From the NCBI RefSeq assembly GCF_014202935.1, contig NZ_JACHHX010000003.1:1-64000 (forward strand): 64,000 bases of DNA, given 5' to 3'. Made by a program: the position numbers and the translations under genes. The DNA comes from Rehaibacterium terrae (lineage in GTDB: Bacteria; Pseudomonadota; Gammaproteobacteria; Xanthomonadales; Xanthomonadaceae). The stretch's first letter is position 1, and the number at the start of each line of letters is the position of its first letter. The notes under the pieces are model-generated. The model saw nothing but the letters and a program-made list of their open reading frames with translations. It did no database searches and was not told the DNA's origin. Below, in pieces: positions 45,656-55,190 of the stretch.

Positions 45656-46249
45656 ATGAACCTCCCCCGGATGCGGCCGTCGGATGCCGACAGTGACGAC
45701 GACCAGGCGCTGGTGCGCCGGATCGGAGCGGGCGACCGCGCCGCCTGCGCGGCGCTGGTCGACCGCTACCTGTCGCGCATCCACGCCTTCGCCGCGCGCG
45801 TGCTCGGCGATCCCGCCGATGCCGAAGAGGTCGCGCAGGACGTGTTCCTGCGCGTCTGGGAGCATGCCGCGCGCTGGCGGCCGCAAGGCGCGCGCTTCTC
45901 GACCTGGCTGTACCAGGTCGCGCTCAACGCCTGCCGCGACCGCCTGCGCCGCCGTCGCGAGCTGCTGCCACTGGACGAAGGCGCGGCGGCCTCGCCCGAG
46001 CAGTCGCCGGAGTGGCGCATGCAGGAGGCCAGCGTGTCGGCACGGGTGCGCGATGCCATGAGCGAACTGCCCGAACGCCAGCGCGAGGCGCTGGTTCTGT
46101 GCCACTTCCACGAGCTGCCGCAGGCCGAGGCCGCGGTCGTGCTCGGCGTGTCGGTCGATGCGCTGGAGTCGCTGTTGGCGCGCGGCCGACGCGGGCTGCG
46201 CCAACGGCTGCTGGACGAGCGCCCGCATCTCACCGGAGACCTGCCATGA
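45656..46249 (+). CDS. ECF-type RNA polymerase sigma factor
   Basis: 197 residues. Region 2: LVRRIGAGDRAACAALVDRY and DAEEVAQDVFLRVWEHAARW, recognising the -10. A linker and then region 4: LPERQREALVLCHFHELPQA and VSVDALESLLARGRRGLRQ, recognising the -35. There is no C-terminal extension. ECF sigma factors are held by an anti-sigma factor until a signal arrives; the next two genes, each ATGA-coupled, are the likely anti-sigma and its sensor partner. Subgroup not determined. Confidence 0.94.
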   Translation: MNLPRMRPSDADSDDDQALVRRIGAGDRAACAALVDRYLSRIHAFAARVLGDPADAEEVAQDVFLRVWEHAARWRPQGARFSTWLYQVALNACRDRLRRRRELLPLDEGAAASPEQSPEWRMQEASVSARVRDAMSELPERQREALVLCHFHELPQAEAAVVLGVSVDALESLLARGRRGLRQRLLDERPHLTGDLP

Positions 46250-46683
46250 CCACGCCCCTGTCGCCGCAACGCTTCGCCGACCTGCTCGCGGCCCACGGCG
46301 CCGACCCGCGCCGCTGGCCGCAGGCCGAGCGCGCCGCAGCGCTCGCCTTGCTGGCGGCCTCGCCCGAGGCGCGTCGCCAGCAGCATGAGGCCGCGCGACT
46401 CGACGCCCTGCTCGATGCCTGGCAACCGCCCGCCCCCTCGCCCGACCTGCGTTTGCGCCTCCTGCACGCCATGCCGCTGCCGCAGCGTGCCGAATCGCTG
46501 CTGCATCGGCTGTGGCGCGAGCTCGGCGGTTGGCGGCTGGCCGCGCCGGCACTGGCCGGCGCGCTGGCGTTGGGCATCGCCATCGGCGTGTTGCTGCCGG
46601 CGATGGAGGCCGGCGACGACTTGCTGGCCGAATGGCTGTCGCTGGCCCAGCTCGACGACCCCTACGAGGAATACACGCCATGA
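46246..46683 (+). CDS. Putative membrane anti-sigma factor
   Basis: 145 residues: a cytoplasmic N-terminus with SPQRFADLLAAHGADPRRWP and helical stretches (ERAAALALLAASPEARRQQH), one membrane helix (LAAPALAGALALGIAIGVLL, ~residues 97-118), and a short periplasmic tail ending DDPYEEYTP. It lacks the H-x3-C-x2-C zinc anti-sigma motif. Anti-sigma function is inferred from topology and position after the sigma gene, with four-base overlaps on both sides. Confidence 0.75.
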   Translation: MTTPLSPQRFADLLAAHGADPRRWPQAERAAALALLAASPEARRQQHEAARLDALLDAWQPPAPSPDLRLRLLHAMPLPQRAESLLHRLWRELGGWRLAAPALAGALALGIAIGVLLPAMEAGDDLLAEWLSLAQLDDPYEEYTP

Positions 46684-47183
46684 GCGACGCCCTGACCCGC
46701 CCGTTCCGTCTCGCCCTGCTGGCCTCGCTGCTGCTCAACGCCGCGCTGGCCGGCGTGCTCGGCGCGCTGTGGCTGCGTTCGGCCGGCGACACCGGCGATG
46801 TGGCGAGCAGCGAGCGCAGCGAGGACGCGCGCACGCCGTCGCCGGGCCGGCTTGGTCGTGAGCTCGCGCCGGAGCAGCGCGCGCTGATGCGCGAAACCTT
46901 CGCGCGCCACCGAGCGCCGATGCGCGAGCACGCCGAAGCCGCGCGCGCCGCGCGCCGCGCGGTCGCCGCCGTCCTGCGCAGCGAACCCTACGACCGCGAC
47001 GCGCTGGCGGCCGCCTTCGCCGAACTGCGCGCGCGCGACGGCGAGGCCGCCGCCGTCACCCACGCCATGCTGCTCGATCTGGCCGACCGGCTCGATGCCG
47101 AAGGGCGCGAGCGATTGGCGGCACGCATCGAGCGTGCCGGTCGCCATCATCGCGGTGGACGCGGCGCGACGCCGAAGAAGTGA
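46680..47183 (+). CDS. Periplasmic heavy-metal sensor-like (CnrX/ZraP-type) protein
   Basis: 167 residues: one N-terminal membrane helix (LALLASLLLNAALAGVLGAL) and a periplasmic helical domain rich in Arg/Ala/Glu with LAPEQRALMRETFARHRAPM, YDRDALAAAFAELRARDGEA and AVTHAMLLDLADRLDAEG, resembling the helical hairpin of CnrX/CpxP/ZraP proteins. Few Cys or His residues beyond one or two His, so metal binding is uncertain. It may sense a periplasmic signal for the sigma factor. Ends with basic HHRGGRGATPKK. Confidence 0.75.
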   Translation: MSDALTRPFRLALLASLLLNAALAGVLGALWLRSAGDTGDVASSERSEDARTPSPGRLGRELAPEQRALMRETFARHRAPMREHAEAARAARRAVAAVLRSEPYDRDALAAAFAELRARDGEAAAVTHAMLLDLADRLDAEGRERLAARIERAGRHHRGGRGATPKK

Positions 47184-47368
47184 GCGCCACCTTCGCGCCG
47201 CGCCTGGCCGGCGGCTCACGGCCCGTCCGTGTGGCCGCGGTCCGGGCATGCCACGTCGAGCGGGCGATTTCACGCGCTGGGAAAACGCGCCTGATCCTGT
47301 ACACCCGGCCCGTCCCCTCCGACGTCGCTGCGTTCATTTCGGCAGCCGCGTTCTGCCCAGCGTGAGGC

Positions 47369-47668
47369 CGGCTTCAGGCTCCGGATCGCGTCGCGCCGCA
47401 GCTCGCAGTGCATCGTCATCTTGTCCAGCATCGCCTTGAGCCTCTCGATTGCTTCGTCCCGTGCGTCGGCCTCGCGTGCCTTCAGGGCCGCCACGCCCGA
47501 AGCGACAAACGCCTCGCGCCACGCAATCAGCTTCGCTGCCGTGACCTTCAACTCACGCGACACCGTGTCCAAGCCCTCATTGTGCAGCAGCCTGAGCAGC
47601 GCATCACGCCTGGACTTCGCCGACCGGCTGCCGTGCCCCTTCACCCGCTCGATCTTCCCCGGCCTCAT
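47369..47668 (-). pseudogene. Remnant of an IS3-family transposase orfA
   Basis: From an ATG at 47668, about 100 codons encode an HTH-type transposase start: [59 protein letters not shown] and DEAIERLKAMLDKMTMHCEL, the HTH plus leucine-zipper pattern of IS3 orfA. After that the frame turns into unrelated sequence and no orfB (DDE domain) follows. It is therefore a truncated, inactive copy. The family is by pattern recognition; the exact IS is not identified. Confidence 0.72.
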
Positions 47669-47733
47669 CCCGGACTCTCCTCTTGAAGAGGGGTTTCGCA
47701 AGAGCGTGTCCAAGGAAATCGAGGGGCGGAGGA

Positions 47734-47826
47734 CTGGCCCAGAACGCTTACGGCGAGATCACCGGCGCAGTCAGTGCCGATGCCCTGCTCGGGCGGATCT
47801 TCGCCAGTTTCTGCATCGGCAAATGA
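47734..47826 (+). pseudogene. mnmE: 3' fragment of mnmE (tRNA modification GTPase)
   Basis: The frame reads [20 protein letters not shown], then [10 protein letters not shown] and stop. This matches the invariant C-terminus of MnmE/TrmE, where FCIGK carries the catalytic Cys. Only about 30 codons are present; the rest of the gene is absent upstream, where an IS-like end abuts at 47712. The last 18 bases (47809-47826) correspond to the known trmE attachment site used by SGI1-type islands. Remnant identification is strong; how it arose is inference. Confidence 0.8.
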
Positions 47827-47868
47827 AGCGATGAGGCTTGTGCGTTGATCGTGGCGTGGGGTGCAGGC

Positions 47869-48315
47869 CTACTGCCGGATCACCTCACGCTGCATCGGTG
47901 CCAGGATCGCCAGCAGCTCGTTCTGGGCCGACAGCGGCACGCCGCGCGCACGCATCGCGTCCACGAGGTGTTCCACGAGGGCGTTGAAGTCGGCCTCGGT
48001 CAGGCCAAGCCCAGCATGCGCGGCGCGCATGTCGCGGCCGGTGTAGGTGCAGGGGCCGCCTGACAGTGCGCAGAGCTGCTCGACCAGGCGTTCGTGCAGG
48101 TTCACCAGGTCGGCTTCGGCGAAATCGTCGGCGATGCGCGGGTCGGCGACGCTGCGGGCCAGCAGGTCGAAGGTGATGGCATCGATGCCCTCGCTGCCAC
48201 CGAGGCGCTCGTAGAGGCTGACCTTCGGGGTACCGCTACTGGCGCAACCGGCCAGCAACAGGGCGAGCAGCGCGGCGCACAGGCCGCGCTCAGTGGCTGA
48301 TCTGCACCGAGACAT
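47869..48315 (-). CDS. Truncated haemoglobin lipoprotein (group I-type globin)
   Basis: 148 residues. Signal peptide with lipobox LLAGC (Cys24), so it should be a membrane-anchored periplasmic lipoprotein. The globin part: SLYERLGGSEGI (residues 34-44), LARSVADPRI, then AAHAGLGLTEADFNALVEHL with the proximal haem His100. The usual distal Tyr (B10) is replaced by Leu52 in my alignment by eye. Truncated globins bind O2 or NO. Exported versions are unusual. Its start lies 26 bases inside the DUF3034 gene, the last member of a four-gene operon. Confidence 0.85.
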   Translation of the reverse strand: MSRCRSATERGLCAALLALLLAGCASSGTPKVSLYERLGGSEGIDAITFDLLARSVADPRIADDFAEADLVNLHERLVEQLCALSGGPCTYTGRDMRAAHAGLGLTEADFNALVEHLVDAMRARGVPLSAQNELLAILAPMQREVIRQ

Positions 48316-49177
48316 ACCAGGCCTCCTGTCGGTCGAGGGTGGCAATGCTGCCGAGGTCGGCGTAGGCCGCGACCACCGCCACGCGCTTGTTGGGGAACCA
48401 GCCCACGAACACGTCCTTCCAGTCGTGCTCGCGGGCGAAGCCGAGGTTGTCGGGCTTCTGCCGGTACTCCACGCCCACCGCCCAGCGCGGGTCGAGCAGT
48501 ACCGCCACGCTGGCCTCACCGAGCAGGGAGCGGCCACGCCGTGCATCGCCGCCGAAGCCGAGCAGGCCGGTCTGGTTGGCATTGCTGCTGCGGAGCACGC
48601 CATTGAGGAGCAGGTTCCGGCCGCCAGCGCCACCGAGGAACAGCTTGGTCGCGGCGAGGTAGACATCGTTGCCGGAATCATCCACTGCTCCCACCAGCGA
48701 GGGCACGAGGAAATCACGTTGGCGCTTGTGCTGCAGGCCAAGGCTGAGTTGCGGCCACGGGCTGTAGACGAGGTCGCCGGCGAGGCGAAGCTTGGCGTGG
48801 GCGATGTCCTGGCGGAAGTGGCGGGTTGGCAGGGCCAGCGCGTCGGCCAGGGTGGGCAGGCCGAAGTCCTGGCGTGCCAGGCCGATCTCCACGCGGTTGC
48901 GCCAGCCCAGCGCGATGCCGCGGCTGGTCAGTGTGTAATCGCCGCTGTCGACGCGGGTGGCGAAGGCCGCGCCGCCCCATTGCTCGTCGGTGCCGTAGCC
49001 GGCGATCACCGCCCAAGGCACGACACCGCCTCCGGCGCTGCCTTCGATGCTGCTGGCGCCGCCGGTGGCGAGCAGGCGGCCAGCGTAGCCCTTTGCGGCA
49101 GGGGTGGCGATGTCTCTGGCAAGGATTTCCGGGCTGCCCAGTAGTGCGGCGGCAAGGAGGAGGCTGGGGTATCTCAT
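48290..49177 (-). CDS. DUF3034 family protein (probable outer-membrane beta-barrel)
   Basis: 295 residues. Signal peptide (LLLAAALLGSPEILA). The remainder has alternating hydrophobic strands and aromatic ends typical of barrels: GDYTLTSRGIALGWRNRVEI, LVYSPWPQLSLGLQHKRQRD, SVAVLLDPRWAVGVEYRQKP, NKRVAVVAAYADLG and a C-terminal YVSVQISH. I recognise it as DUF3034, whose members occur with cupredoxin and GGDEF-EAL genes. Function is unknown. The ATG overlaps the GGDEF-EAL stop by four bases. Confidence 0.83.
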   Translation of the reverse strand: MRYPSLLLAAALLGSPEILARDIATPAAKGYAGRLLATGGASSIEGSAGGGVVPWAVIAGYGTDEQWGGAAFATRVDSGDYTLTSRGIALGWRNRVEIGLARQDFGLPTLADALALPTRHFRQDIAHAKLRLAGDLVYSPWPQLSLGLQHKRQRDFLVPSLVGAVDDSGNDVYLAATKLFLGGAGGRNLLLNGVLRSSNANQTGLLGFGGDARRGRSLLGEASVAVLLDPRWAVGVEYRQKPDNLGFAREHDWKDVFVGWFPNKRVAVVAAYADLGSIATLDRQEAWYVSVQISH

Positions 49178-51543
49178 GCGGCGTGGTCCTCCATCTGCTC
49201 CTGACGACGACGCAGCCAGTCGAGCAGGGCTTCGCAGGGAAGCGGGCGGCTGAAATGGTAGCCCTGCGCCACATCACAGCCCAGACGGAGCAGGACTTCG
49301 AGACCGATTTCGTTTTCCAGGCCTTCTGCGACCACCTTGATGCCAAGGGCATGGCCGAGCTGCACGATAGACTGCACGATGCGTTCATCATCGGTGCCGG
49401 GTGCCAGCTGCAGCACGAAGCTCTTGTCGATCTTCAGCTCATCGGCTGGCAGACGCTTGAGCTGGGCCAGCGAGCTTTGTCCGGTCCCGAAATCATCCAC
49501 GGAAACCCGGAATCCCTCCGAACGCAGGCGCTTCAGAGTCTGTACGGCGCGCTCCATATCGGCCAGGACGGCGCTCTCGGTCACCTCGAGAATGATGTCG
49601 CCGGCGGTCACCCGGTGATGTTGCAACCGGTCGAGTACCGTCGAGGCGAGATTTGGATCGGCCAGGTCGATGGCGGAGAGGTTGATCGCCACCCCGTGAT
49701 CGAAGCCAGCCGTCCGCCATGCGGCGAGCTCGGCGAAGGCGTGATCGATGACCCAGTGGGTCAGGGCACCGATGAGTCCTGCGCGTTCGGCCAAGGGGAT
49801 GAACTCGTCAGGACCAATCCGGCCCAGCTGGGGATGGGTCCAGCGCAGCAGGGCTTCGACATGACGAACCCGGCGGGTACGGAGATCGACCTTGGGTTGA
49901 TAGTGAAGGCTGAACTGATCGCCCTCGATGGCGTTACGCAATTCACCAACGATGGCCAGCTGGCGCAGATGCCGCTCATCCATGCCCTCGCGATAGAGAC
50001 CGATCCGTCGTCCTTCACGTTTGGCGCACTGGTTGGCGATCTCCACCCGGCGCAGCAGCGTGCGGGCATCGGGCAGGCTGCCGTCCTGCAGCCGCGCGAA
50101 AGGCACCAGGCCGAGATCCACCTCCAGCCGCAGCGGTACACCCTGCACGTCCATGGGGGCGGCCAATAGTTCGGCCAGTGCCTCGAAACGGGTGTGGGCC
50201 TGCTCGGCGTCCATGGTCCAGAGAGCAACCAGGAACTCGTCACCCCCCAGGCGGGCTAGCAGATCGTCGCCGCGCACGGCGGCGCGCAGGCGGTTGGCCA
50301 CCTCGATCAGGGCGAGATCACCATGGACATACCCGAGCTGGTCATTGACCTCATGGAAATGGCGCAGGTCGATCATCGCAAGGGTGCCCTGGCGGAGTGC
50401 GGGGTCGGCCAGGCGTTCGCTGAGCAGGTTCAGGGCCCGCTCCCGGTTGGGCAGGCCGGTGAGGGCGTCGTGCCCGGCCTGGTGGAGAATGCGCTGCTCG
50501 CGCTCGGCGATGCCCTGCTGCATGGCATTGAAGGCTTCGGCGAGGAGGGCGAATTCGTCGCTGCCCTCGACCGGCAGCGTGGCGCCGTACTCGCCACGGC
50601 GGATGCGCGATGCGGCCCGTGCCAGCTCACTCACTGGGCCGCTGACGCGCCGGCCGATGAGGGCGGCGGCCAGCATCGCCAGCGCGGCGGCGGCGAGCGA
50701 CAGCACCAGGACCTGGGCCTGCAGCCCGGCATAGGGCGCCATCGCCAGCCCGCGGTCTGCTTCGATGACGAGGTAGACCGGGGTAAGGGATTCGGCAGAG
50801 AGCCGCAGCGCCAGCCGCGGGCCGCCACCGTCCTCCGGCTCCAGCGCGATGCGCAACGCGCCGGTGTCCAGCGCTGCCAGGTCGGCGCTGCCCACCTCGA
50901 CGCCCTGCACCGTGCGCCAGTGGTCCATGTCGCGCAGCACCACGTTCGGCGCGAGACCGGTGATTTCGGCCAGCTCGTCCGTTTCCCCGGTGCCGAAGGG
51001 TTGGCCCAGGGCCAGCCAGCCGACGAGATCGGGGGCGAACACCGGCACCAGGGCATAGCTCACCGGCTGGCCGGAAAGGGCGACGATGCCGGCTGAAAAA
51101 CCGTCTTTCCGGGCTTCCGCCACCAGGCCGCGCAAGGCGGACTCCGGCAGCGCGACCCCGGCGTGCAGGCGCGTTGCCAACACGTGGGCATCCGGAGCGA
51201 GTACCGCCCCGAAAGGCGTTCCGATGCGTTGGTGGGCACTTTCCAGTACGGATTCCAGGGTGGGACCATCCTGCAGCGCGATGGCCTCCCGGAAACCAAA
51301 GTCTTCGGCCAGCACCGAGACCCGCTCCAGCAATTGCCTCAGCTTCGTCTCGTGCAGCCGGTTCCAGACCTTCTCGCCCACCCGCAGCTGGGCCTCGAGC
51401 TGCTGCTTGATGCTGCGTTCCACCGCCACCCGCACCGTGAGCCAGCCGGCGACCTGCAGGCCCACCACCAGGCCGGCCAGCAGCAGCACCAGCTTGGTGC
51501 CGAAGCGCAGGCCGCGTCGCCGAAGAGCCGCCGCCTCGTCCAT
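49174..51543 (-). CDS. Membrane GGDEF-EAL c-di-GMP signalling protein with periplasmic sensor
   Basis: 789 residues. Order: membrane helix (~15-35), a periplasmic sensor of about 225 residues (dCACHE-like; WLTVRVAVERSIKQQLEAQL, LESAHQRIGTPFGAVLAPDA), second helix (~265-290), HAMP (RRVSGPVSELARAASRIRRG), GGDEF with intact GGDEF (~432-436), EAL with intact E563-A-L (VEALLRW), NLSAIDLADPN, DDFGTGQSSLAQ and VAEGLENE. Both catalytic sites look complete, so it could make or degrade c-di-GMP. The upstream cupredoxin gene stops 3 bases before it. Confidence 0.93.
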   Translation of the reverse strand: MDEAAALRRRGLRFGTKLVLLLAGLVVGLQVAGWLTVRVAVERSIKQQLEAQLRVGEKVWNRLHETKLRQLLERVSVLAEDFGFREAIALQDGPTLESVLESAHQRIGTPFGAVLAPDAHVLATRLHAGVALPESALRGLVAEARKDGFSAGIVALSGQPVSYALVPVFAPDLVGWLALGQPFGTGETDELAEITGLAPNVVLRDMDHWRTVQGVEVGSADLAALDTGALRIALEPEDGGGPRLALRLSAESLTPVYLVIEADRGLAMAPYAGLQAQVLVLSLAAAALAMLAAALIGRRVSGPVSELARAASRIRRGEYGATLPVEGSDEFALLAEAFNAMQQGIAEREQRILHQAGHDALTGLPNRERALNLLSERLADPALRQGTLAMIDLRHFHEVNDQLGYVHGDLALIEVANRLRAAVRGDDLLARLGGDEFLVALWTMDAEQAHTRFEALAELLAAPMDVQGVPLRLEVDLGLVPFARLQDGSLPDARTLLRRVEIANQCAKREGRRIGLYREGMDERHLRQLAIVGELRNAIEGDQFSLHYQPKVDLRTRRVRHVEALLRWTHPQLGRIGPDEFIPLAERAGLIGALTHWVIDHAFAELAAWRTAGFDHGVAINLSAIDLADPNLASTVLDRLQHHRVTAGDIILEVTESAVLADMERAVQTLKRLRSEGFRVSVDDFGTGQSSLAQLKRLPADELKIDKSFVLQLAPGTDDERIVQSIVQLGHALGIKVVAEGLENEIGLEVLLRLGCDVAQGYHFSRPLPCEALLDWLRRRQEQMEDHAA

Positions 51544-51546
51544 GGC

Positions 51547-52206
51547 TCAGGGGCGTGACGGGGTGCGCAGGCGTTCCTGCAGGGCGCGCAGGCGCTCATC
51601 GCCGCGAGGCGGGGGCGGCGGGGCGAGGGGAAGTTCGAGCACTTCGGCGGCGGCGACCGGCAGGGTGAGGCGGCGCTTCGGCGCCGCATCGATCGACGGC
51701 AGGCGTTCGTGCCAGGCAGTGAGCAGGTACTCGCCTGGCGGTGCCTCCAGCCGGACCCGGCCCTCGGCATCACTGAGGGCGAAATGCGGGGTGTCCACCA
51801 CCACGATATAGCCCTTCATCCAGTCGTGGATATTGCAGCCCAAAGTCACCACACCGGTGCGGTCGAACAGCACCGGCTCGGGCGGTGTGCCTGTATAGAG
51901 CGGCAGCTCGAAGCGCTTGGCCGGCGAGAAGGAATAGACCTGGTGGCGGATGCGGTCGCGGTTGGGGAAATGCACCCGCGAGCCCTTGGTCACCACCAGC
52001 ACGCGCGGTTCGAACTCGCTGTTCACCTGGTCCATCACCGCTTCCATCGGGGTGACGGTGGCGGCGCGGCCGACCGGGCTCAGGGTGACGACGGCGTTGG
52101 CGACCGGGCGGCCCTCGCTGAGGACGCGTACCTCCACGGCGGCGGCAGGGAGGGCCGCGAGGACGAGCAGGCCGGCAAGCAGCGCGGCGCGAAGGCGTGT
52201 GGCCAT
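51547..52206 (-). CDS. Secreted cupredoxin-like protein
   Basis: 219 residues. Signal peptide LAGLLVLAALPAAAVE. The cupredoxin fold is shown by RVHFPNRDRIRHQVYSFSPA with His88 and VTLGCNIHDWMKGYIVVVD with Cys124, His127 and Met130, a complete type 1 copper site. A C-terminal beta/immunoglobulin-like part follows (GEYLLTAWHERLPS). Often annotated 'methylamine utilization protein', but no methylamine genes are nearby. It is the first gene of the cupredoxin/GGDEF-EAL/DUF3034/globin operon. A type 1 copper centre suggests electron transfer or redox sensing in the periplasm. Confidence 0.88.
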   Translation of the reverse strand: MATRLRAALLAGLLVLAALPAAAVEVRVLSEGRPVANAVVTLSPVGRAATVTPMEAVMDQVNSEFEPRVLVVTKGSRVHFPNRDRIRHQVYSFSPAKRFELPLYTGTPPEPVLFDRTGVVTLGCNIHDWMKGYIVVVDTPHFALSDAEGRVRLEAPPGEYLLTAWHERLPSIDAAPKRRLTLPVAAAEVLELPLAPPPPPRGDERLRALQERLRTPSRP

Positions 52207-52359
52207 GCACGGCTCCCATGGTTCCAGTTGTGCCCGAGCATAACCCGGCCGCTGGGCCCGTTGTGTGCGGCGTGTCAGACGTCGCCGTCGTTTGACCAGC
52301 CTTCACCGGTACCGCGCTGGAACACCCGGTCGGTGTCCAGACACTGCGCCAGCCGGTAG

Positions 52360-52695
52360 CATGGGCTGCCTGGCCTGGCGGGTGCAGATTGGCGCGAAGG
52401 CCGCGCCGGCGACAGCCCGCAGGCGCTGGCGCCGGTCGCCGCACGGCTGGGTATCGACGACATCGCCGCCGCCATCGCCGCGCCGGCGGTGAAGGCGCGG
52501 CTGCGCGAGAACTTCGAGGCCGCCGTCGCCGACGGCGTGTTCGGCGTGCCGACCTTGGCGGTCGGCGGCGAACTGTTCTGGGGCGAGGACGCGCACGACT
52601 TCGCCGAGGCCGTGCTGGCCGACCCGTCGCTGCTCGACGATCCCGAGTTCCGCCGTGTGACGGCGCTGCCGATGGCGGCCGTGCGCGGCGGATGA
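52360..52695 (+). pseudogene. C-terminal fragment of a DsbA-family 2-hydroxychromene-2-carboxylate isomerase-like gene
   Basis: From an in-frame TAG at 52357 onward, the frame reads WREGRAGDSPQALAPVAARL, then AVKARLRENFEAAVADGVFG and VPTLAVGGELFWGEDAHDF, the C-terminal half of HCCA isomerase/DsbA-like proteins (GVFGVPT and ELFWG motifs). The first half is missing; only an internal GTG at 52489 could start a 68-residue peptide. So it is a 5'-truncated gene. Its stop overlaps the terminator of the next minus-strand gene. The region 52207-52359 shows no other gene. Confidence 0.75.
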
Positions 52696-52720
52696 AAAAA
52701 CGCCCCGGCGAACCGGGGCG
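52695..52720 (-). terminator. Intrinsic terminator of the metzincin gene
   Basis: On the minus strand, CGCCCCGG-TTCG-CCGGGGCG (52701-52720) is followed by TTTTTT (complement of 52695-52700), a textbook rho-independent terminator with a UUCG-type tetraloop. It lies 28 bases after the 52749 stop and overlaps the stop of the isomerase fragment. Confidence 0.9.
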
Positions 52721-52748
52721 CGTTGGCAAGCTCGCCAGGGGAAGGGGT

Positions 52749-54809
52749 TCAGTTGCTTCGGCAGCTGTTGCTGGCGTCGAAACTGCCGACGTGGCTGCCG
52801 CTGACCGCGGTCACGCAGAAGGTGATGCCGCCGCCGCGGTAGTTGCCGCTGCCGAAGCTGACCTGGCCGACACCGTCGGTGGTGGCGGTCGAGCAACCGC
52901 TGGTGGCGCCGGAGAAGCAGCCGGTGACGCTGGCGCCGGTGAGCGGCCTGCCGTGCTGGTCGACGATGCTGGCGATGGCGGTGGTGCTGACGTTCTTGCC
53001 GCGGCTGCTGCTGCTCAGCGTGATCGTGCCGACCCTGGCCACGGTGTCGCTGACCGGCGCGGTGACCTTCAGGCTGGTCGAGGCCGAGGCGTTGCCGCCA
53101 CTGCTGCGGGTGGCGCTGGCCGAGACCGTGTAGGTGCCGCTGGCGGTGTTCTCGGTGGTGGTCACCGACAGGGTGGTGCTGGCGGTAGCCCCCGGGCTCA
53201 CCGAGAGTTTGCTGGCGGCGAAGCTGCCGCTCCAGCCGCTGGGCAGGGCGCGGGTCAGGTCGAAGGTCGCGCTGGCGCAGGCCGAGCTGTCGTTGTTCTT
53301 CAGGCTGACGGTGTAGCTGGTGCCTTGGCCGGCCAGCACTTCGGCGGCGCCGCCGCTCAGGCTGAGCGTGGGCGTGGCGGCCGAACAGGACGGGGCCGGC
53401 CCGCTGCCGCCGAAGGCGACGTCGACCGCGGCGGTGGTGCCGTCGGCCCAGGCCAGGGTCAGGCGCAGGTCGTTGGCGGCGTCGACGAAGGTCGCGCCGG
53501 GTACCAGGGCGCCGTCCTCCATGTCCCAGGTGCGCATGGAGCTGCTCTTGGGGGTCATGTCGAGGAAGAAGCTGCTGTCGCTGTCGCCTTCGGTGGCGCG
53601 GCGGACGATCACGCCGGAGGTGAGATTGCCGACGCTGCCCAGGCTGCCGTCGTAGCCGGCCGGGCGACGGTATTCGACGAAGTAGTACTGCTGGCGGCCG
53701 CCGGCATCCTTGCCGGCCGGCACCCGCAGCGCCTTGGGGGCGTTGTCGCCGGCCGAGTAGGCGTCGATGTAATAGCGCTCGCTGCGGGTGGCGGCGAGCA
53801 CCTGCGGCGAATGCTCGGTGCCCAGCCAGCCCAGCAGCATCTTGTTGAAGGCGCCGAAGTGGGCGGCGCGGCGGTTGCCCATGCTGTCGGCCGGGTCGCC
53901 GTAGGTCAGCACCACGCAGTTCAGGCTGGTGCTGTCGTCACAGCTCAGCGCCTTGGCGTGGCGCAGGCCGAAGTTGTGGCCGAGCTCGTGGCTGATGTTC
54001 TGCACGGTGAACACGCCGTTGATCCAGGCCTGCGAGGGATTGCCGCCGACCGTGGCCAGTCCGGCCCAGCCGCAGGCGTTCCTGGGGAACATGTAGACGC
54101 GGCGGCTGTAGTCGCTCACCTTGACGCCGGCCTGGGTGGCGCGCTTCTCGGCCTCGCTGGCGATCTGCCCGCTGTTGCAGGAGGTCGAGCTGACCGGAAT
54201 GGTGTACCAGCCGACGGTGTCGCCGGCGAGCCAGGTCTGCCCGGCGGAGTTTTCGCGGAAGTAGTCGCCGACGGTGCCGAACACCAGGCTGTGCGCGCTG
54301 GCGCGGCTCATCGGCTGGCTGGTGTCGTCCTGGAAGTTGACCAGCATCACCAGCGTGCGCTGCTCGCCGAGGGTGTTTGGCAGGGTGCCGCTGCTGGCGA
54401 CGGTGCTCTGGGTGCTGACGCTGTCGCCGCTCTCGACGTACAGCGCTTCCAGGTCGGCGCTGAAGGGGCGGCCGCGCACGGTGGCGCGGGTGCCGGTCAG
54501 CAGCTGCGGCGGACGGCCGCGGAAGTGCAGCTCGACCGGGCGGCCGTTGGCGCGCAGGAAGTAGCGGGTCTCCGCATGTTCGGCGTAATCCTCGACCAGC
54601 ACCTCGATCTCGCCCTCGACGCGGATCTCCGGGGTGTCAGGGCGGGCGCGCTCGGAGGCCTGCGGCGGCAGCGCGTGGTTGCCGTGTGCCTGCACGGACG
54701 ACGGCGCGGCGGCGAAGGCGAGGGCAAGGGCGAGCGGGAAGGCGAGCGAAAGGGAGGCGCCGGTGAGCGCGGTCGGGCGCGGCGCGGGTGTGCGTGGGGT
54801 GAAGTTCAT
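52749..54809 (-). CDS. Secreted zinc metalloprotease (gametolysin/M12-like metzincin)
   Basis: 686 residues. Start ATG at 54809 gives a signal peptide (LSLAFPLALALAFAAA). Seen: a propeptide-like N-terminal domain (ELHFRGRPPQLLTGTRATVR-type region), the catalytic domain with HELGHNFGLRH (~272-282), which has the HExxHxxGxxH-like metzincin pattern of zinc ligands, and DPADSMGNRRAAHFGAFNK further on. Then a NEW3-like Ig domain (TYTVSLKNNDSSACASATF) and a C-terminal Ig-like repeat (VRVGTITLSSSSRGKN-type). So it is an extracellular protease, probably exported by the type II system. Terminator downstream; a divergent amidohydrolase gene upstream. Confidence 0.9.
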   Translation of the reverse strand: MNFTPRTPAPRPTALTGASLSLAFPLALALAFAAAPSSVQAHGNHALPPQASERARPDTPEIRVEGEIEVLVEDYAEHAETRYFLRANGRPVELHFRGRPPQLLTGTRATVRGRPFSADLEALYVESGDSVSTQSTVASSGTLPNTLGEQRTLVMLVNFQDDTSQPMSRASAHSLVFGTVGDYFRENSAGQTWLAGDTVGWYTIPVSSTSCNSGQIASEAEKRATQAGVKVSDYSRRVYMFPRNACGWAGLATVGGNPSQAWINGVFTVQNISHELGHNFGLRHAKALSCDDSTSLNCVVLTYGDPADSMGNRRAAHFGAFNKMLLGWLGTEHSPQVLAATRSERYYIDAYSAGDNAPKALRVPAGKDAGGRQQYYFVEYRRPAGYDGSLGSVGNLTSGVIVRRATEGDSDSSFFLDMTPKSSSMRTWDMEDGALVPGATFVDAANDLRLTLAWADGTTAAVDVAFGGSGPAPSCSAATPTLSLSGGAAEVLAGQGTSYTVSLKNNDSSACASATFDLTRALPSGWSGSFAASKLSVSPGATASTTLSVTTTENTASGTYTVSASATRSSGGNASASTSLKVTAPVSDTVARVGTITLSSSSRGKNVSTTAIASIVDQHGRPLTGASVTGCFSGATSGCSTATTDGVGQVSFGSGNYRGGGITFCVTAVSGSHVGSFDASNSCRSN

Positions 54810-55190
54810 TCGGATGTCGGACCGTGCGTTGGGAAGTACAAGGCGGGCCCGGAAACCCGCCGCGGACGGCTCCTGCCCCTGGCGGAGCCATGGATGCGCC
54901 GTAGGCGCGCGAGCTTCCCTGCTTCGGTATCGGGCCGGGCCGTCCTCACCGGGGTGGGCGGCGGCGCTGCGCAGGGTCCGGAAAACCGGCGGCGGGTTTT
55001 GTGACGGGGTGCGCGCATCTGGGCGTGTCCGCCGGGTTTTTGGCGAATTTGTGACGTATCGCGTCCTTCGGCTGACGTATCGCGTCAGTCCGGGCGGGGC
55101 GTGGCAGCCGCGGGCGGGACTTCCGTCCCACGCCACGCCGGCCGGATTCGGCTAGCCTGACGGCTTCCCTGTACCTTCGGAGGCCGCCCG
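54810..55190. promoter_or_regulatory. Divergent intergenic region with paired 14-bp direct repeats
   Basis: No gene seen. TGACGTATCGCGTC occurs at 55052-55065 and again at 55073-55086, exactly 21 bases apart (two helical turns), 104 bases before the amidohydrolase start. Each copy is itself an imperfect palindrome (GACG...CGTC). A third, weaker match (TTTGTGACGGGGTGCGC) lies near 55000. This spacing suggests a regulator binding to one DNA face; the regulator is not identified. Confidence 0.6.

Follow-up and report, generated by a model that had tools for sequence, protein, structure and literature searches.

An amicyanin-like cupredoxin paired with a dCache_3 receptor of exchangeable output: a candidate envelope sensory module in Rehaibacterium terrae

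The genome of Rehaibacterium terrae (G000; 2.9 Mb in 34 contigs; G and L numbers are our handles for genomes and loci) carries on contig 3 a run of four minus-strand genes encoding, in order of transcription, a cupredoxin, a membrane receptor, a DUF3034 protein and a globin. The run spans positions 47869-52206 of the stretch analysed, which is positions 1-64000 of that contig (hereafter, the window). A first-pass annotation had described four tightly packed genes here, among them those for a type 1 copper protein, a membrane cyclic diguanylate (c-di-GMP) protein with a periplasmic sensor, and a barrel-like DUF3034 protein. Open reading frame (ORF) coordinates, gene junctions, Pfam and profile matches bear out the packing; profile matches to amicyanin and nitrite reductase, together with invariant ligands, agree with the copper protein, as do Pfam matches to dCache_3, HAMP, GGDEF and EAL with the membrane protein, and a Pfam match together with a predicted barrel of about 12 strands fits the DUF3034 protein. 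The most telling fact is absent from that description: outputs are swapped behind a constant cupredoxin and sensor.

The cupredoxin gene (51547-52206, minus strand; 219 amino acids) is separated by three nucleotides from the receptor gene (49174-51543, minus strand; 789 amino acids), which overlaps the DUF3034 gene (48290-49177, minus strand; 295 amino acids) in an ATGA; the latter overlaps the globin gene (47869-48315, minus strand; 148 amino acids) by 26 nucleotides. The globin start is an ATG with an AGGAGG 7-8 nucleotides before it, inside the DUF3034 gene, and the mechanically called ORF begins too far upstream. Such tight junctions look like those of a single transcript, and we read the four genes as one tight operon. 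A scan of 47200-52800 for sigma-70-like sites found none, matching the expectation from shuffled sequences.

No Pfam or NCBIfam model reached its cut-off with the cupredoxin, which by eye begins with a signal peptide and ends in a carboxypeptidase-regulatory-like stretch whose scores also lie below cut-off. A profile of its relatives matched, among PDB chains, copper nitrite reductase (E-value 2e-7), amicyanin 1aac (E-value 5e-4) and pseudoazurins. All 35 aligned relatives share the type 1 copper ligands H88, C124, H127 and M130, which argues for a complete type 1 site; copper binding is predicted from this ligand set. The His, Cys, His, Met series comes with a C-x2-H-x2-M loop, the spacing of the amicyanin ligand loop.

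In the receptor, a transmembrane helix, a periplasmic dCache_3 domain (PF14827; 29.8 bits, cut-off 25.7) and a second transmembrane helix are followed by HAMP (53 bits), GGDEF (101 bits) and EAL (257 bits), which places it in the inner membrane as a dCache_3 receptor: a double Cache between two helices, then HAMP. An AlphaFold2 model of residues 1-346 has a double Cache fold with a predicted local distance difference test score (pLDDT) of 90.7, and Foldseek matched the sensor to DctB, PctA, Tlp3, LuxQ (3c38) and the CHASE4 structures 8wct and 8z6n. The window receptor retains both the EAL catalytic set (EXLXR plus the metal-binding residues) and GG[DE]EF. Of 101 distinct GGDEF-EAL receptors, 100 have the full EAL set and one is truncated at the end of its contig, but only 19 keep GG[DE]EF, which argues that the conserved catalytic activity of this type, as predicted from its residues, is degradation of c-di-GMP by hydrolysis.

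The link between cupredoxin and receptor emerged from searches for the cupredoxin alone. Outside DUF3034 neighbourhoods, these covered 50 loci (38 + 12) from the searched genome sets, 37 of them strong (at least 125 bits) and comprising every such match of the two cupredoxin searches, plus 80 species-named loci, the best of 597 matches; three of the 80 repeat contigs already in the DUF3034 set. A receptor of one sensor family adjoins the cupredoxin, upstream or downstream, in 34 of the 37 diverse strong loci and in 76 of the 80 named ones, 110 of 117 in total. Such a receptor stands beside none of 14 weaker cupredoxin-like loci (13, plus L122 of the DUF3034 set), which are a minority of the weak matches.

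Behind this common sensor, outputs in the 34 are a Ser/Thr kinase (18), GGDEF-EAL (9), a cyclase (3) or a histidine kinase (1), with one receptor cut by a contig end and two unclassified (L336, L337); in the 76 they are GGDEF-EAL (67), a cyclase (5) or a histidine kinase (3), with one contig-cut. The labels come from local comparison with Pfam-confirmed domains, and for L210 and L211 the kinase label comes from local phmmer comparison only. Pfam confirmed GGDEF with EAL, Pkinase, Guanylate_cyc, and HisKA with HATPase_c on representatives, mostly behind dCache_3 and HAMP; exceptions are L228 (dCache_1 instead), L090 (no Cache model), L222, L234 and L203 (dCache_3 below cut-off), L094 (below cut-offs throughout) and L087 (no match). 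On a tree of the sensor domain (97 rows), whose members extend to Nitrospirota, Rokubacteria and Methylomirabilota, 5 changes account for output type against a shuffled mean of 28.4, and on a cupredoxin tree (128 rows) 6 against 31.5, with the kinase group on one side of a branch; both are quick trees with many weakly supported inner branches, and shared descent is expected to cluster the labels. It is thus the receptor that the cupredoxin follows rather than the output, and the pair survives output swaps. Because this pairing persists in 110 of 117 loci through such swaps, against 0 of 14 weaker loci, the cupredoxin is probably the cognate periplasmic partner of the receptor.

Some of these loci form classes of their own. 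A cupredoxin with a dCache-HAMP-Ser/Thr kinase receptor is found in relatives of the same order (L198, L200-L202, L204-L208, L212-L216 and L233); no report of this receptor class turned up, and no search was aimed at it. A dCache-HAMP-nucleotide cyclase receptor accompanies the cupredoxin in L220, L224, L225, L254, L273, L280, L297 and L308, of which L254 and L308 lie outside Pseudomonadota. In Pseudomonas loci L103, L104, L241 and L262, a second receptor of the same sensor family lies close to the four genes.

DUF3034 itself (PF11231; 364 bits against a cut-off of 25) is by prediction an outer-membrane beta-barrel. A signal-like N-terminus is seen in 118 of 122 DUF3034 loci by a hydropathy rule, and the model is a closed barrel of about 12 strands with pLDDT 70-87 in most barrel blocks, 67.5 overall and under 50 for residues 1-60. 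Its nearest fold is FapF (VIA-align Z 19.4, rmsd, the root-mean-square deviation, 3.0, 218 residues aligned), then KdgM and NanC, with COG4313 channels also matching; families beyond those listed may match too, and given the moderate confidence of the model we do not assign the nearest folds as relatives. Where DUF3034 is absent, other barrel-like proteins often adjoin the cupredoxin, as in L263, L275, L300, L223, L286, L305, L310, L303, L309, L294 and L304. Of nine of these searched in Pfam, six match below cut-off (Porin_4, OMP_b-brl, BBP2, SlipAM) and three match nothing; the recurrence of a barrel beside the cupredoxin was judged mostly by eye and is no proof.

These barrels bear on two other explanations of the set. 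One is sensing of an extracellular small molecule, with the barrel as substrate porin, the dCache domain binding the ligand, and the copper protein structural or catalytic. The kinship of the sensor fold with DctB, PctA, Tlp3 and LuxQ would suit this, as would the KdgM, NanC and COG4313 matches and the substitute barrels just described, but it leaves both the invariant copper site and the strict cupredoxin-receptor pairing unexplained, and we hold it to be unlikely. The other is copper uptake and sensing: DUF3034 would admit copper, the cupredoxin carry it and the dCache domain read the load, with the globin a side partner. Amicyanin-type sites usually hold their copper for electron transfer, which argues against such a carrier, and no copper exporter, regulator or other extra family recurs in the 60 neighbourhoods described below. 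The copper ligands of the cupredoxin are indeed invariant, and the DUF3034 model does match the copper channel PcoB, though with a lower score (Z 13.2, rank 29) than FapF and KdgM, and a fold match gives no function. In its favour, a periplasmic CHASE4 domain of the GGDEF-EAL protein PA14_37690 is reported to bind copper (PMC13277305). On balance the copper explanation seems rather unlikely to us.

The globin (Bac_globin, 57.7 bits against a cut-off of 21) carries a lipobox, LLAGC. A simple hydropathy rule marks 115 of 120 globin loci as probably exported and finds a lipobox in 77 of the 120. A profile match to HbN (1idr; E-value 4e-24), the shared EF-loop motif, and a proximal His100 (F8) in 49 of 49 aligned globins assign it to the 2-on-2 group 1 truncated haemoglobins. 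Cys82, Cys89, Met96 and His100 (148-residue numbering) are invariant in all 49. An apolar residue (Leu, Phe or Ile) fills position E11 in 49 of 49; at B10, 46 carry Leu, Val, Met or Ile and three carry Ser, Thr or Asn, none having Tyr, so that the exported family lacks the Tyr B10/Gln E11 feature, which we take to be characteristic, though not strictly defining, of the group. Of seven control truncated haemoglobins from related genomes, all have Tyr B10, six have Gln E11 and none has the Cys pair; three further relatives of the exported family repeat its residue pattern. Judged by these residues, the globin is a distinct subfamily, with the proximal His kept, an invariant Cys pair and an apolar distal pocket. 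Loss of the Tyr B10/Gln E11 network lowers affinity for oxygen (O2) and favours nitric oxide (NO) or CO; the apolar pocket thus predicts poor O2 binding and a preference for NO or CO.

To place the four genes in a wider context, DUF3034 was traced in 15 of the 274 genomes searched for the class, in 39 of 398 for the phylum and in 22 of the 60 relatives, altogether 71 distinct genomes. Sixty DUF3034 neighbourhoods came from 58 of the 71, chosen by eye before neighbourhood content was seen; among the 13 genomes left out are three with partial matches (G207, G521, G663). A globin adjoins DUF3034 in 55 of the 60 neighbourhoods, 54 times immediately downstream and in the same orientation. Both cupredoxin and receptor occur in 36, and the exact one-strand order cupredoxin-receptor-DUF3034-globin recurs in 27, where the receptor is of GGDEF-EAL type in 25 (with broken frames in L070), a kinase in L090 and devoid of an output domain in L087; some other neighbourhoods have the cupredoxin-receptor pair divergent or downstream. 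When all ORFs of the 60 were clustered, only the four genes proved widely conserved: no further cluster was common to more than 14 neighbourhoods, and the example ORFs of clusters in 14 and 8 neighbourhoods are frames overlapping the set's own genes.

DUF3034 also occurs on 13 plasmid records, three of which were inspected. Two Caballeronia plasmids carry all four genes, which NCBI names methylamine utilization protein, EAL domain-containing protein, DUF3034 family protein and group 1 truncated hemoglobin; a Novosphingobium plasmid carries the same set, its cupredoxin named carboxypeptidase regulatory-like domain-containing protein. A part in methylamine (mau) metabolism was considered and rejected: no other mau gene recurs in the 60 neighbourhoods, and the three annotated plasmid stretches hold no mau-named gene apart from the cupredoxin itself. 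The first-pass annotation had pointed to a search of other genomes for the same gene order and to chance co-occurrence in single species as what would undo its proposal; recurrence across many genomes of the phylum and on plasmids of Beta- and Alphaproteobacteria excludes a chance association.

A passively inherited neighbourhood with no functional coupling we regard as very improbable. Horizontal travel of the cassette could by itself keep its genes together, but the pairing persists though order and strand vary (divergent, downstream, receptor upstream), and it holds through output swaps and in trans: among relatives with DUF3034 but no adjoining cupredoxin, 13 of 14 carry a cupredoxin-receptor pair elsewhere in the genome, and none was found in G676.

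The closer tie of the globin is to DUF3034 rather than to the receptor. In 17 of the 60 neighbourhoods a DUF3034-globin pair stands without a nearby cupredoxin that reaches 120 bits (among these, L122 does have a cupredoxin-like gene of lower score, and L082 is a contig of 4 kb). R. terrae has a second such pair (L067) on contig 1, at 210542-211785, 49-52% identical to that of the window; it adjoins a gene for a CHRD-domain protein, and the 16 kb inspected there contain no cupredoxin or receptor. Conversely, L069, L075, L079 and L080 have DUF3034, 34-44% identical to that of the window, with no globin in the neighbourhood; near L069 and L075 lies an oxidoreductase-like gene that by eye resembles sulfide:quinone reductase.

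The constancy of the DUF3034-globin pair, in 55 of 60 the most constant part of the set, would fit a third alternative, in which globin and cupredoxin exchange electrons to detoxify NO or redox agents and the c-di-GMP enzyme only monitors them or is merely co-expressed. A haem protein and a copper protein do share an operon, and a single-sequence PDB search with the cupredoxin ranks 5fc9, a blue copper domain protein that we presume to be an NO oxidiser, first, though weakly (E-value 0.057). However, many cupredoxin-receptor pairs have no neighbouring globin, so that a globin beside the cupredoxin is dispensable, and no reductase or cytochrome family recurs in the 60 neighbourhoods. We consider such a detoxification pair improbable.

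Instead, we favour, with some reserve, an envelope-spanning sensory module in which the cupredoxin is a dedicated partner of the dCache_3 receptor and sets its output. The periplasmic, amicyanin-like cupredoxin would act on the dCache_3 domain of the inner-membrane receptor, which would read its chemical state, Cu(I) versus Cu(II) or loaded versus apo. The cupredoxin would thereby set the cytoplasmic output, here c-di-GMP turnover, presumably mainly through the EAL phosphodiesterase and in a direction that we can only infer. DUF3034 would form a barrel in the outer membrane, and the exported globin would sit with it there or in the periplasm and bind haem, possibly with NO or CO as ligand. The signal itself may be redox, copper or NO; redox or NO chemistry of the envelope, with the globin as a participant, could determine the state of the cupredoxin. 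More tentatively, and with doubts of our own, these genes may represent a new receptor class: in several phyla, transmembrane dCache receptors would have an electron-transfer cupredoxin as their first messenger, which turns the redox state of its copper into a c-di-GMP, cyclic-nucleotide or phosphorylation signal; upstream, a barrel and an exported globin that bears a disulfide and excludes O2 would supply the NO or redox input.

Several observations weigh against a dedicated partnership. The periplasmic dCache part has no invariant or nearly invariant His, Cys or Met, and no fusion of cupredoxin and receptor was seen in any of 183 loci. Strong cupredoxins without the receptor beside them occur at L199, L227, L229 (where a receptor lies 1.7 kb away), L286, L303, L309 and L311, and within the DUF3034 set no adjoining receptor was found for the strong cupredoxins of L108, L072 and L084. 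The cupredoxin search profile was built from cupredoxins adjoining DUF3034 and the receptor profile was refined on the loci counted here, while the named loci, being the best matches, are mostly Pseudomonas. Co-inheritance is pronounced among the 60 relatives, counted anywhere in the genome: cupredoxin and DUF3034 occur together in 22, DUF3034 alone in 0, cupredoxin alone in 7 and neither in 31 (Fisher p 1e-10), and for the globin the counts are 22, 0, 2 and 36 (Fisher p 2e-14; globins taken at an E-value of at most 1e-30, 24 genomes, with a weaker family member in G683 uncounted), but these p values overstate independence because the genomes are related by descent. Finally, 16 of the 60 neighbourhoods have a DUF3034-globin pair with neither cupredoxin nor receptor nearby, and the globin may therefore serve a separate function.

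How the cassette reached R. terrae can be read from its flanks. A block at 47746-52409 shares 84% DNA identity with G665, a genome of the same family, and is the sole blastn match in the 40 kb of G665 compared. At its left edge lie the last 30 codons of mnmE (47734-47823, plus strand; 93% to G665) and at its right the last 31 codons of phhA, for phenylalanine 4-monooxygenase (52278-52370, minus strand; 64.5% to G665). In G665 and in a Silanimonas metagenome-assembled genome the order is yidC, mnmE, cassette, phhA, lrp, where mnmE was identified by PF12631 and the other three are names that we presume. An intact mnmE without the cassette is present on R. terrae contig 8. It is 65% identical to the G665 mnmE, and yidC is 52% identical, whereas the cassette proteins are 81-93% identical to their G665 counterparts; with this baseline, which consists of two genes only, and with the donor gene tails, the cassette was most likely acquired horizontally from a G665-like donor, carrying the mnmE and phhA tails along. 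An inserted cassette between gene remnants, as first suggested for this locus, accords with this.

Beyond the tails lie a transposase-like ORF fragment (47273-47713, minus strand), with a weak IS3-type helix-turn-helix below cut-offs, and the C-terminal half of a DSBA-fold gene (52381-52695, plus strand; profile positions 113-189 of 191), whose N-terminal half is missing at the locus, with no other copy found in the genome. The G+C content of the cassette, 68.6% against 69.9% for the window, is uninformative on a compositional island. Three other proposals were rejected: tRNA-mediated insertion, as no tRNA was found in the 64-kb window; phage origin, as 68 phage records match the receptor but none over at least 80% of its length, and the five listed among them cover 53-55%, the GGDEF-EAL part; and a defence system, as a PADLOC scan of the four proteins gave no match. 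Further left, a sigma factor gene, a small gene and a gene for a Metal_resist-family protein stand in a row (45656-47183), and to the right (52749-55136) a large metallopeptidase-like protein with gametolysin-like and NEW3 domains is encoded.

No description of the four-gene system was found in the literature searched, which lay mostly outside subscription papers and preprints. Within it, no paper joined methylamine utilization protein with GGDEF or truncated hemoglobin, group 1 truncated hemoglobin with EAL domain-containing protein, or cupredoxin with c-di-GMP and globin; the one paper joining methylamine utilization protein with an EAL domain is a Leptospira transcriptome, papers on cupredoxin and c-di-GMP did not concern this system, judged by title, and among those listed for exported truncated haemoglobins none names a truncated hemoglobin in its text. 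Mentions of DUF3034 appear to be other families (a figure legend on DUF3037 and an entry in an actinobacterial list). By linking them to receptors with c-di-GMP, kinase and cyclase outputs, the analysis offers a likely role for DUF3034, the receptor-adjoining 'methylamine utilization protein' and an exported subfamily of truncated haemoglobins. Were the receptor gated by the cupredoxin, a soluble metalloprotein would let bacteria sense redox, copper or NO in the envelope, and this would explain how second-messenger control is informed of the periplasmic redox state; since the outputs are exchangeable, one reporter would do to test for a common input.

Individual parts of the module have known counterparts. 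The cupredoxin shares with amicyanin the fold and ligand loop, and its orthologues on two plasmids receive the name 'methylamine utilization protein' from PGAP (the Prokaryotic Genome Annotation Pipeline), but it differs in its extra C-terminal stretch, its pairing with a signalling receptor and the lack of recurrent methylamine genes. Like HbN, the globin has the proximal His, the EF-loop motif and the profile match; unlike HbN, its family is exported, has an invariant Cys pair and has neither Tyr B10 nor Gln E11. In DosC-type globin-coupled diguanylate cyclases, too, a globin is linked to c-di-GMP control, but there it is a cytoplasmic domain of the enzyme, whereas here it is separate and exported.

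Larger assemblies offer closer comparisons. LuxP, a soluble periplasmic protein of sugar-binding type, reads autoinducer-2 (AI-2) and acts via the dCache-type domain of LuxQ, much as we propose for the cupredoxin; the present system differs in that a type 1 copper protein takes the place of LuxP and that c-di-GMP turnover, Ser/Thr kinase and cyclase are among the outputs. In YfiB-YfiR-YfiN and NspS-MbaA, outer-membrane or periplasmic partners control an inner-membrane c-di-GMP enzyme, a role that would fall here to a cupredoxin, a globin and a barrel; no YfiR, YfiB or NspS family appears among the Pfam and NCBIfam matches of the four proteins, which do not belong to the YfiBNR type. Periplasmic sensors of the Pseudomonas aeruginosa c-di-GMP enzymes IsmP (PA2072), PA14_37690 and PA14_53310 are reported to bind iron, copper or haem directly (PMC10904736, PMC13277305). 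Solved CHASE4 domains match the window sensor, but in the P. aeruginosa enzymes the sensor itself binds metal or haem, while here copper and haem proteins are separate and the sensor scores as dCache_3; these reports make a copper or haem input plausible here, yet also offer a rival. The best reading, by analogy, is that the module works like LuxPQ and YfiBNR but belongs to neither.

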